Origin: SAR202 cluster bacterium
GTDB taxonomy: Bacteria > Chloroflexota > Dehalococcoidia > UBA3495
NCBI GenBank assembly: GCA_009392775.1
Contig: VFFT01000048.1
Span: 1 to 12,062, forward strand
Direction: 5' to 3'
Length of the DNA: 12,062 nucleotides
A model generated the notes under the pieces. That model saw only the letters and a program-made list of their open reading frames with translations. It did no database searches and had not been told where the DNA came from. Position 1 is the stretch's first letter. The number at the start of each line of letters is the position of its first letter. Made by a program: the position numbers and the translations under genes. Of this stretch, positions 4,861-9,331 are shown in pieces.

Positions 4861-5931
4861 ATGGATATAACAGAGCCTGTTTCGGTCGCAAATCTTGAAG
4901 ATGCGCATGAACGTATGTATGACCTGGGATGGACTGACGGGCTACCCGTAATCCCTCCTACCACCAATCTAGTTAATGCTGTCCTAGAATATTTAGGCAG
5001 AGATCCACAAGAAATAATTGGCATAGTCCCTCCTAAGAACAGAATAGCCTCAATAGAGAAGATCGCTGTCAACTGTGTCATGGCTGGCTGCAAGCCACAT
5101 CACGTGCCAGTTGTAATAGCAGCTTTAGAGGGACTATTAGAAGATTCTTTTAATTTAAACGGGGTCCAGGCAACGACTAACTGCGTGGCGCCCCTCACTA
5201 TAGTAAGTGGCCCCATAGTTGACGAACTAGATTTCAATTATGGGGATAACGTGTTCGGTGGAGGCTCACGCTCTAGCGCAGTGGTAGGTAGAGCTGTGCG
5301 TTTAATATTATGGAATCTAGGTGGAGGGTACCCGGGAGAGATTGATAGGGCTACAATCGGACACCCAGGAAAGTATACGTTTTGCATAGCTGAAGACCCT
5401 CACAATAATCCATGGGAATCAATACACGAAGAAATGGGATTTACCAAAGACGCCTCCTGCGCTTCTGTATTCGCGTGCGAAGCTCCACATCACATAGCAA
5501 CTGGATCAGGCTACATCCTGTCGGCCACTGACATACTGAAAGTCATCGCAGATAGCACAGCTACCGCTGGGAGCTCGACTATGAATGGGGGAGGACAGAT
5601 ACTCCTAGTCATAGGACCGATGACCGCGCAGAAACTCGCCTCCGAAGGGTATAATAAAGACCTGATACGAAAGGAACTGGCTCAATTAGCTGTGAAACCA
5701 GTTGGTTTAATGAAATCCTGCCAATTTTTGAATCCTGGCCATCCATTCCATTGGGCCAGCGTTGTTGACGCTAATGACGACAGAGCTATGGTACCTGCTT
5801 TACGAGAACCCGAGAAGCTCTTAATAGCAGTTGCTGGAGGGTGGGGTTCTGGATCTGGATTTTGTGCAGTTACACACGGTTGGATGGAAGCAGGCGGACA
5901 CCTACAAACTAAAGCGATAGTGAAACCATAA
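4861..5931 (+). CDS. Conserved uncharacterised protein upstream of UGSC selenoprotein, Cys/His/Gly-rich
   Basis: A 356-aa soluble protein with no signal peptide or membrane segment. I do not recognise a characterised function. Its N-terminus has the striking segment GWTDGLPVIPPT (23-34), which I recall as typical of a widespread uncharacterised bacterial family found with UGSC proteins. Other motif-like blocks: AVNCVMAGCKPHH with C72 and C77; NGVQATTNC with C108; IGHPGKYTFCIAEDPHNNPWE with C175; DASCASVFACEAPHH with C200 and C206; STMNGGGQILLVIGP; and C-terminal GWGSGSGFCAVTHGWMEAGG. The many Gly/Cys/His blocks suggest an active site or ligand-binding role, not a structural one. The ATG is preceded by GGAGG at 4852-4856. 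The selenoprotein gene begins 25 bp after its stop, so the two are very probably co-transcribed and may form a complex. That last point is inference. Confidence 0.85.
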   Translation: MDITEPVSVANLEDAHERMYDLGWTDGLPVIPPTTNLVNAVLEYLGRDPQEIIGIVPPKNRIASIEKIAVNCVMAGCKPHHVPVVIAALEGLLEDSFNLNGVQATTNCVAPLTIVSGPIVDELDFNYGDNVFGGGSRSSAVVGRAVRLILWNLGGGYPGEIDRATIGHPGKYTFCIAEDPHNNPWESIHEEMGFTKDASCASVFACEAPHHIATGSGYILSATDILKVIADSTATAGSSTMNGGGQILLVIGPMTAQKLASEGYNKDLIRKELAQLAVKPVGLMKSCQFLNPGHPFHWASVVDANDDRAMVPALREPEKLLIAVAGGWGSGSGFCAVTHGWMEAGGHLQTKAIVKP

Positions 5932-5956: not shown

Positions 5957-6487
5957 ATGTCCGAAATAATATTACACAGCCCTATAGGTAAGGAAGCATC
6001 ATTCGATCCCGACATCACACCGATATCCACCCCCAGAGGGGGTAAAGTTGCCTTTCTATTTAACGGCCACGTATCGGTTTTACCTTTCTGGAATAACCTA
6101 GAATCTGAAATCAAATCCGTCCTAGAACCTACTGAGACTATGCAAATCATAAAGCCCAATACTTTCGCACCTGCGTCATCAGAGGACATAGACAGTCTGT
6201 CATCAGCTGATTTAGCTATAGTCGGTGTATGTGCTTGAGGATCATGCACATCCGGCTCCGTGCGAGACGGTATAAACCTAGAGAGAACAGGTGTACCCGC
6301 TATAGTCATATCACACAACGTATTTGAAAAAGCCGCAAGAGCTCAATGCAACGCACTAGGGGTTCCAGATTTGAGGATACTCGTTTACTCTCAGCCCAAG
6401 GGTGAAGAAGAAGAAGTTGAAGGAGCCAAAGCAGCCACAGATATATCGAAGCAACTAATTCAAATGATTGCATCTGAAGATAAATAA
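5957..6487 (+). CDS. UGSC family selenoprotein; selenocysteine at in-frame UGA, codon 94
   Basis: One 176-residue protein read through an in-frame TGA at 6236-6238. Upstream (93 codons) and downstream parts are in the same frame and make one continuous fold: a strand KVAFLFNGHVSVLPFW, a strand LAIVGVCA leading into U94, then GSCTSGSVRDG, a helix, TGVPAIVISHNVFE, and a Lys/Glu-rich C-terminal helix. The U94-G-S-C97 motif, with C92 close by, is the signature of the UGSC (seleno)protein family. U94 and C97 form a UxxC redox-type pair. From memory, the stretch after U also resembles the UGTCTR region of GrdB-type subunits of glycine/betaine reductases, followed by a similar helix and G-[IV]-P strand; this hints at related selenol chemistry but does not prove a substrate. 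The ATG has GAGAGG at 5943-5948. True stop is TAA. Without Sec decoding it would be annotated as two short hypothetical ORFs (5957-6238 and 6260-6487). The genome should then encode SelA, SelB, SelC and SelD elsewhere. Confidence 0.9.
6236..6238 (+). other. In-frame UGA, predicted selenocysteine codon
   Basis: The TGA is flanked by codons for VGVCA and GSCTSG in one frame, and the reading frame stays open for 82 more codons to a TAA. The flanking residues match the UGSC motif exactly at the Sec position. It is the only TGA seen in frame within any supported gene here. Confidence 0.88.
6239..6279 (+). promoter_or_regulatory. Candidate bacterial SECIS element downstream of the Sec codon
   Basis: CCGT (6258-6261) pairs with ACGG (6267-6270) around the five-base loop GCGAG. 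The loop starts 24 nt after the UGA and its first base is G, both within the accepted bacterial SECIS rules (loop about 16-37 nt away, G in the first two loop positions). AGG at 6238-6240 can pair with CCT at 6277-6279 to close a longer lower stem. Only four base pairs make the upper stem. A competing hairpin GCAC/GTGC (6246-6249 with 6260-6263) exists but places no G at the start of its loop and lies too near the UGA. Confidence 0.5.
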
Positions 6488-7330: not shown

Positions 7331-8128
7331 CTAACGGCGCGAGTCGAATTCTAACTCAACGTTATTTTCCAGAACTCCTATCCCGGGTATATCCACTTCA
7401 ACCTTATCCCCGGGCTTAATTGCAATAGTTACTCCTGTTGCTCCAGAAAACACCAAATCGCCCGGTCTCAATGTAACTTGCTGACTAATGCAGCTCACTA
7501 TCTCCGGAAAAGTGAACAGCATATCTCTCGTATTACAACTCTGCACTAGCTCTGAATTTATTCTTACCATTAAATCTAATTCGGTAGGATCAATGTCTGT
7601 CTCTATCCAAGGCCCAACAGGAGCGAAAGTATCGGCTCCCTTTGCTCTCCAGAAAGACCAATCTTTCCCTTGCCATGTCCTGTCACTGACGTCATTTCCG
7701 CATGTATAACCCAGAATAAATCTGCCAGCTTCCTGGGGTGTCACCCTCCGACAATCTTTTGCTATTACTGCGACAGCTTCACCTTCATAATGGACATCCC
7801 CTTCAGAATCCGAGGGAATAATTATCGGATCACTAGGACCTGTCAATGCATTTCTCCCTTTCCTCCACGGTTGTGGTTGCGTAGGGATAGGTGGTGTGTC
7901 CTGGCCTAATACCTGCCCAGCGAACTCCAAATGCTCCAGAAAGTTCAAGCCGGGACACCAAATCTCCATAGGATCAGTCGGAGGTAACAATCTTACTTTC
8001 GACAGTTCATGCGCAGTATCAGTCATCCGAAATTTTGAAAATATACTCCCTCGTATTTCAACGAGCTTATCCCCCTGCAAAACTCCATACACTACCCTCT
8101 TACCGTCTCGAAAGCGAGCAATTTTCAT
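7331..8128 (-). CDS. Fumarylacetoacetate hydrolase (FAH) family protein
   Basis: A 265-aa member of the FAH superfamily, which hydrolyses or decarboxylates beta-diketo / 2-keto acids such as fumarylpyruvate, acylpyruvates and 2-oxo-hept-diene-dioates, commonly at the end of aromatic catabolism. A short N-terminal domain (MKIARFRDGKRVVYGVL) precedes the catalytic domain. Metal ligands are visible: E115 and E117 in HYEGEAVAVI and D146 in GNDVSDR, with the conserved lysine at K163 in AKGADTFAPVGPWI. The late loop that is usually TGTP-like is SGATGV here, a mild departure. The minus-strand ATG follows GGAAGGG with eight bases of spacing. It converges on the DinB gene and is divergent from the LLM gene with a 189-bp shared upstream region. 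No exact substrate can be assigned. Confidence 0.92.
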   Translation of the reverse strand: MKIARFRDGKRVVYGVLQGDKLVEIRGSIFSKFRMTDTAHELSKVRLLPPTDPMEIWCPGLNFLEHLEFAGQVLGQDTPPIPTQPQPWRKGRNALTGPSDPIIIPSDSEGDVHYEGEAVAVIAKDCRRVTPQEAGRFILGYTCGNDVSDRTWQGKDWSFWRAKGADTFAPVGPWIETDIDPTELDLMVRINSELVQSCNTRDMLFTFPEIVSCISQQVTLRPGDLVFSGATGVTIAIKPGDKVEVDIPGIGVLENNVELEFDSRR

Positions 8129-8317: not shown

Positions 8318-9331
8318 ATGAAATTAGGTTTCTTCGTCACCAACCAATATCTACCCGGAGAGTCAATGCCTAGGAAAATTCAAGACAGTGTAGAGCAAGT
8401 AAGAGCTGCTCGAGAAGCTGGCTTTGATTTAATATGCACAGGACAACACTACCTTGCCGCCCCATACCAAATGAGCACAAGCTTCCCATTATTGGCCCGC
8501 CTGGCTGCAGAAGCAGGGGACATGGAAGTTGCTGCAACTATAATATTAGTTCCTCTTCTAAACCCAGTAGAATTAGCCGAAAGTGTGGCAACCATGGATG
8601 CGATCTGTAACGGAAAATTTATATTCGGGGTCGGACTAGGATATCGAGACGAAGAATACGCCGCATTTGGCATCCAGAGCCATGAGAGAGTAGGGCGTTT
8701 AAAGGAATCTCTTGAAATCATGAAACTTCTGTGGGGAAAGGAAGAAGTAGAATTTCAAGGACAGTATTACCAAGTACCTAAGATCACACCGGCTACGAGA
8801 CCAGTCCAGTTGCCCCATCCACCTATATGGGTAGCAGCTAATAACGGCGTCGCGATACGCCGAGCCGCCAGATGGGGATATCCGTGGATCATCAATCCAC
8901 ACGCTACTATTCCAATGATATCCGAGCAGTGGACTGACTATAAAGCAACTTTGATAAAGGCCAACAATCCTATTCCAGACACTTTACCAATGATGCGGGA
9001 ATTATATATAGCTGACAATAGGGAGACCGCGTTTATAGAAAGTGAACCCTATCTGGCATCAAAATACAAAGCGTATGCCGACTGGGGTCAAGATAAGGCC
9101 CTTCCGGGGGAAGAGAGTTTCTCTGTCCCTTACCAAGATCTGGCTAAGGACAGATTTCTACTTGGCTCACCAGATGAAGTCGTCAGTGAAATCCAGCGCT
9201 ACGAAGAGGAATTAGACGCTAACTACTTAATATTCAGAATGCAGTGGCCCGGAATGGAGCAAAGTCAGGTTCTAAAACAGATAGAGCTACTTGGAAAAGA
9301 AGTAATACCCCGAGTCAAGAAAAACAGTTAA
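8318..9331 (+). CDS. LLM class flavin-dependent oxidoreductase (bacterial luciferase-like)
   Basis: A 337-aa TIM-barrel protein of the luciferase-like monooxygenase superfamily, which uses FMNH2 or F420 to oxidise or reduce organic substrates. Motifs include MKLGFFVTNQ at the first strand, EAGFDLICTGQHY (33-45), ATIILVPLLNPVELAESVATMD (73-94), the hallmark GKFIFGVGLGYRDEEYAAFG (99-118) and the C-terminal FLLGSPDEVVSEI segment. The family mark ERVGRLKESLEIMKLLW is also present. Cofactor (FMN or F420) and substrate are not decidable by eye. No signal peptide. Starts with ATG after GAGG; ends in TAA. LLM enzymes are strongly expanded in SAR202-type Chloroflexota, where they are proposed to attack recalcitrant organic matter; that is family knowledge used as context only. 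The gene converges on the ABC transporter 34 bp away. Confidence 0.94.
   Translation: MKLGFFVTNQYLPGESMPRKIQDSVEQVRAAREAGFDLICTGQHYLAAPYQMSTSFPLLARLAAEAGDMEVAATIILVPLLNPVELAESVATMDAICNGKFIFGVGLGYRDEEYAAFGIQSHERVGRLKESLEIMKLLWGKEEVEFQGQYYQVPKITPATRPVQLPHPPIWVAANNGVAIRRAARWGYPWIINPHATIPMISEQWTDYKATLIKANNPIPDTLPMMRELYIADNRETAFIESEPYLASKYKAYADWGQDKALPGEESFSVPYQDLAKDRFLLGSPDEVVSEIQRYEEELDANYLIFRMQWPGMEQSQVLKQIELLGKEVIPRVKKNS

Follow-up and report, generated by a model that had tools for sequence, protein, structure and literature searches.

One gene across an in-frame TGA: a UGSC-family selenoprotein of a SAR202 cluster bacterium, its partner gene and a possible reductase role

Two short open reading frames of a SAR202 cluster bacterium lie in a common frame on the forward strand with a TGA closing the first of them, raising the question of whether this TGA terminates a protein or encodes selenocysteine (Sec), and of what the encoded protein might do. 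Within the window (the whole 12,062-nucleotide stretch of DNA that was analysed), the frames occupy positions 5957-6238 (93 amino acids, TGA-terminated) and 6260-6487 (75 amino acids, starting from GTG). The original prediction had joined them into a single UGSC-family gene with Sec at codon 94. Reading the TGA (6236..6238, plus strand) as U gave a protein of 176 amino acids with U as residue 94 and reproduced the predicted junction VGVCA-U-GSCTSGSVRDG, the gene occupying 5957..6487 on the plus strand with 176 codons and a TAA stop. The ATG at 5957 is preceded by GAGAGG, and no comparable purine run was found 5' of the GTG at 6260. Given that the chance of 82 open codons 3' of the TGA is about 0.008 at the local base composition, openness of the frame is by itself weak evidence.

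The joined protein matched the UGSC family model PF24696 over residues 24-171 with 107.1 bits against a cut-off of 25, in agreement with the family that had been named, while the second frame alone scored 52.2 bits and the first alone matched no Pfam family at E<=0.001. It shares with the GOS UGSC-containing protein this Pfam match and a Sec residue in a UxxC motif. The NCBIfam equivalog NF041046 gave 77.4 bits, under its curated cut-off of 125, indicating that the window protein belongs to a divergent, outlying UGSC branch. The family and the presence of Sec in it were already published in 2008: PMC2398784 counts 255 UGSC Sec sequences in GOS, so that few selenoprotein families are more numerous in ocean DNA, and reports a fusion to a second domain; the window gene thus adds a member to an already known family.

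A scan of genome contigs recovered six close relatives (61-93% identical, labelled Dehalococcoidia, SAR202 or Chloroflexi), all of which span the junction with TGA at codon 94 followed by GSCTSGSVRDG. Compared with the nearest relative, L001, dN/dS was 0.02 before the TGA and 0.04 after it, and third codon positions hold 23 of the 27 differences 3' of the TGA, indicating purifying selection on both sides. This protein-level conservation 3' of the TGA is stronger evidence than the open frame. The genomes of the six relatives contain 54 UGSC places (10, 8, 9, 4, 10 and 13), each with a single TGA. A scan of the phylum found UGSC in 19 of 201 genomes, with one TGA in 57 of 60 matched places; one of the three TGA-less places is only part of a gene, the TGA being in the remaining part, and the other two carry Thr and Met in translations read by eye. 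Among 13 plasmid UGSC genes that were read, the Sec place is filled by Cys in nine, by TGA in two (both Paracoccus) and by Met in two fused genes (Vibrio and Sporomusa, read by eye), in keeping with the expectation that U or C should align at position 94. Three of four database homologues (P0002-P0004) terminate precisely at GVCA, as expected where annotation halts at the same TGA, and the fourth (P0005) diverges from the alignment just 5' of the TGA site. Some of these loci are not independent: L005/L006 and L039/L040 are near-identical pairs, and L052 and L067 come from a single gene in two pieces. No relative was present among 50 pattern matches in viral contigs.

These data bear on whether the TGA could instead be a true stop or a Trp codon, or reflect a sequencing error or a pseudogene lesion. 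A sequencing error was rejected because it would have to recur at 54 of 54 UGSC places across six assemblies, and a pseudogene lesion because purifying selection acts 3' of a TGA that all six relatives share. We also rejected decoding as Trp, given that the replacement residue is Cys and that the nine window genes use TGG 42 times and TGA once. Such readings draw some support from the window itself, where no tRNA was found, the hairpin described below is of ordinary stability and none of the nine genes uses TGA as terminator; however, the relatives' genomes with Sec machinery argue against them as well, and we consider them extremely improbable. We therefore regard 5957-6487 as confirmed to be one gene with a selenocysteine-decoded TGA, and Sec at codon 94 as near certain. 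Standard annotation had been predicted to split such a gene into two hypothetical proteins, and this is seen for UGSC in Paracoccus CP038202, an example of how annotation can miss UGSC genes.

The Sec machinery, which the original prediction had proposed to look for, was searched in the genomes of the six relatives. Matches above cut-off were found for selB in all six and for selA, selD and tRNA-Sec in five each, all five selD genes having their own TGA and the tRNA-Sec matches scoring 62.9-68.2 bits. All four components are present in G001, to which the 93% identical relative belongs. With this, with homologues across the junction and with the recurrent TGA, none of the three refuting conditions named beside the original prediction holds. 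G004 lacks selA and a strong tRNA-Sec match and G006 lacks selD above cut-off, the completeness of neither assembly being given. Only the strong tRNA-Sec hits in five genomes were counted because the model, at the threshold used, matched in all 14 controls (5 above cut-off); in the same controls selB and selD each matched in all 14 (2 above cut-off each) and selA in 4 (1 above cut-off).

A candidate SECIS hairpin with 3+3 bp and a GU-containing loop lies 3' of the TGA at 6252..6270 on the plus strand, nominated by its position and loop. Its pairs are invariant in all seven window-clade sequences, so that the clade offers no covariation, and its energy in single-sequence folding is ordinary and not significant. 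Other UGSC branches have a covarying hairpin about 2 nucleotides nearer the TGA than the window candidate. Across 22 distinct UGSC genes from branches other than the window clade, this 6-bp hairpin has 97% of its cells paired, a loop at nucleotides 23-25 counting from the T of TGA, and both-side changes in five of its six pairs. Its covariation score was 0.541 against 0.132 in shuffles, with 0 of 500 shuffles as high (a count that is not a probability because the 22 sequences are related), and slid versions reached at most 0.093. The set was drawn from 34 loci with one in-frame TGA, omitting seven window-clade loci with the shifted hairpin and four USTC genes with an insertion. Besides its shifted hairpin and its score under the equivalog cut-off, the window clade differs from most other aligned UGSC members in reading GVCA-UGSC rather than G-D-UGSC. 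Fused UGSC-UP356 proteins (UP356 is described below) with USTC replacing UGSC (GHUSTCAPAVAVHG) were seen at L051, L053, L055 and L056, and CSTC occurs in a Neorhizobium plasmid copy that is apparently frameshifted further on. An Rfam search of the window returned three sub-threshold snoRNA matches, which were taken as chance.

What, then, might the protein do? The original prediction had called its reaction uncharacterised, which is in line with a 2026 review (PMC13188914) describing the functions of such selenoproteins as largely uncharacterised. It had left out a relation to GrdB/PrdB, a partner gene and the paralogues. In glycine and proline reductases, selenoprotein B is part of a thioredoxin-linked complex, and grd operons have a thioredoxin link. 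Profile alignment of UGSC with the GrdB/PrdB Sec domain gave an hhalign score of 64.9, against 20.4 for the best of 200 shuffles, with a probability of 96% and Sec aligned on Sec (the hhalign E-value refers to a single pair); the score was still 52.6 after masking Sec and six columns on each side. Neither the window protein nor any of 31 UGSC proteins matched PF07355. By this computation the Sec-bearing half of UGSC is a remote homologue of the GrdB/PrdB Sec domain, also sharing its UG(S/T)C motif, without being a PF07355 member. The Cys of the UxxC motif (codon 97, 6245..6247, plus strand) is unchanged across 31 aligned UGSC proteins and may serve as the resolving residue. The same Chloroflexota genomes encode PrdB-like selenoproteins that share the Sec-domain homology with UGSC but have UPxC rather than UGSC, and their match to PF07355 covers its C-terminal part. 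Further selenoproteins of these genomes, beside full GrdB/GrdE pairs, are encoded by PrdB-like genes whose reading frame has a TGA within U-P-x-C or a similar motif (L089, L090, L091, L103, L104, L107, L108, L110 and L094). In a structure model of UGSC, the order of elements and the best PDB matches are flavodoxin-, CheY- and PurE-like, which would fit a flavodoxin/CheY-like alpha/beta fold; thioredoxins are absent from the 50 fold matches listed, an absence that does not exclude a thioredoxin fold. The UGSC profile also hit two complex II flavoprotein sequences in the PDB (E 0.0016 over 61 positions), which were judged chance.

The partner gene, UP356, encodes 356 amino acids upstream of the UGSC gene at 4861..5931 on the plus strand. 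At 44 of 49 UGSC places it is found on the same strand no more than 700 bp away, and at several loci the two form one fused protein, showing by computation that UP356 is a partner that travels with the UGSC gene. The count covers 49 of the 60 UGSC rows of the phylum scan, leaving out 11 rows from genomes not scanned for UP356, and 54 of the 57 UP356 rows of 11 genomes, leaving out three fragment rows of G003. UP356 matched no Pfam or NCBIfam family. The glycine/proline reductase partner GrdE/PrdA (PF09338) was rejected as a relative, with a GrdE profile probability of 0.2%, and here the UGSC pair differs from selenoprotein B. A sequence search of the PDB gave one match only (E 0.59), and fold comparison gave weak matches to encapsulin, IspF, chorismate mutase and YjgF-like folds, none of them clear. 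Arg, Asn, Thr and His residues, among them R137, R144, R147, N152 and H189, are invariant across 34 UP356 sequences at least 50% identical, and the family comprises at least 2449 sequence clusters, the tested members of which have no Pfam entry. In haloarchaea, genes flank UGSC on both sides; this holds at L075:4352-7014, where both are UP356-like, and at L080:4300-6999.

To what extent do neighbouring genes point to thioredoxin? Fifteen plasmid regions carrying one or both of UGSC and UP356 were viewed with 6 kb flanks, 13 of them annotated. A TrxB-like gene is present in the flanks of four of the 13 annotated regions, those of Variovorax SRS16, Arthrobacter (with trxA), Roseovarius and V. 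boronicumulans. The genes of Variovorax SRS16 and Roseovarius passed the TrxB model (cut-off 343.45), that of V. boronicumulans scored 159.5 bits, under the cut-off, and that of Arthrobacter is identified from annotation. None was found in the other nine by annotation, where two flavin or NAD(P) candidates tested negative. In Chloroflexota genome G095, UP356 (111882-112862), UGSC (112980-113486) and a TrxB-like gene (113507-114394) follow in this order, with the TrxB-like gene (343.2 bits against the cut-off of 343.45) starting 5 bp past the UGSC stop codon. A TrxB-like match (E<=1e-30) lies within 5 kb of UGSC in three of 16 Chloroflexota genomes, namely G095 and the near relatives G005 and G006, in which it is 2.5 kb away; the window has no such gene. 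Recurring neighbours of the plasmid copies are organic-acid transporters (tripartite tricarboxylate, TRAP and TAXI) and organic-acid enzymes (CoA transferases and CoA ester lyase).

From the Sec residue, the GrdB/PrdB homology and the pairing with UP356, together with the TrxB-like neighbours and the recurring organic-acid transporters and enzymes, we infer a reductase role patterned on selenoprotein B in its thioredoxin-linked complex. We lean, with slight preference, toward UGSC and UP356 forming a Sec reductase of two subunits that acts on small organic acids and is regenerated by thioredoxin. The two proteins would assemble into the reductase, with UP356 holding a small organic acid by its invariant Arg, Asn, Thr and His. 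The Sec94 selenolate would attack the bound acid, leading to reductive cleavage of a C-X bond, and Cys97 would resolve the adduct to give a Se-S bond, from which thioredoxin and thioredoxin reductase would restore the selenol. Each UGSC paralogue might then handle a separate substrate. Against this proposal stand the nine of 13 plasmid regions and 13 of 16 Chloroflexota genomes without a nearby TrxB-like gene, the lack of one in the window, the unrelatedness of UP356 to GrdE/PrdA and its want of a clear fold match, the failure of all 31 UGSC proteins to match PF07355, the close similarity of the 34 sequences that define the invariant residues, and fused relatives without Sec or Cys. The wider statement stands on even ground: that this is a new reductase class, dependent on selenium and driven by thioredoxin, in which only the Sec subunit is related to glycine/proline reductase and the substrate subunit comes from an unnamed family, and that marine Chloroflexota of the SAR202 type have expanded it to 4-13 copies in each genome for different organic acids.

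Two other functions were weighed. UGSC could be a general thiol-disulfide oxidoreductase of thioredoxin-like fold acting through its UxxC site on proteins or small disulfides, as suggested in the paper that described the family (PMC2398784). The UxxC motif with its invariant C97 and the TrxB-like neighbours would suit such an enzyme; by contrast, the GrdB/PrdB homology and the element order and best matches of the model point elsewhere, and a general oxidoreductase has no need for UP356 at 44 of 49 places, leaving this function unlikely in our estimate. A non-reductive role of the UGSC-UP356 pair as lyase, isomerase or transferase, in which Sec would be a nucleophile or metal ligand, appears similarly doubtful. 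It could account for fused relatives in which Met or Thr stands where Sec would be, two of which (Vibrio and Sporomusa) lie near aconitase X genes, and for the CoA transferase and lyase neighbours. However, Sec is kept at 57 of the 60 places matched in the phylum scan, UxxC is typical of redox sites, and the TrxB-like neighbours also speak for redox chemistry.

A partner gene, a relationship to enzymes whose chemistry is known and a link to thioredoxin make the function of UGSC testable. If the proposed reductase is real, some marine Chloroflexota would need selenium for organic-acid breakdown, and the UP356 family would gain its first role. Specialists may find three points new: the GrdB/PrdB relation, an unnamed partner that is almost always present, and copy numbers of 4-13 per genome. 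In the accessible parts of the UGSC literature (PMC2398784, PMC13188914, PMC7539508, PMC9312934 and PMC1088965), we found no statement of the GrdB relation, which may still be in print, nor, apart from a fusion, of the partner gene and copy number. A literature search for SAR202 with selenoprotein gave no match, and matches for SAR202 with selenocysteine were unrelated by title.

Several further loci were recorded. Downstream of UGSC in the window are a FAH-family gene (7331-8128, minus strand) and an LLM flavin-type gene (8318-9331, plus strand), the latter kept in all six relatives; a Halorientalis UGSC cluster contains an LLM protein 35% identical to it. Met or Thr at the Sec place was seen at L077:5323-7008, L078:5329-7053, L066 and L057, at least three of which are fused to UP356, and the Vibrio and Sporomusa copies of this type have DUF126 as well as aconitase X genes nearby. 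An Arthrobacter plasmid (L073:2591-6735) carries, in this order, phosphosulfolactate synthase, trxB, trxA, UP356 and a Cys-type UGSC, a hint at sulfonate chemistry. On a Paracoccus ferrooxidans plasmid (L082:5411-12158), UGSC with an in-frame TGA, annotated there as a pair of hypothetical proteins, is followed by UP356; selB stands 3.3 kb downstream from UP356, and upstream lie genes for DsrE, TusA and cysteine desulfurase.
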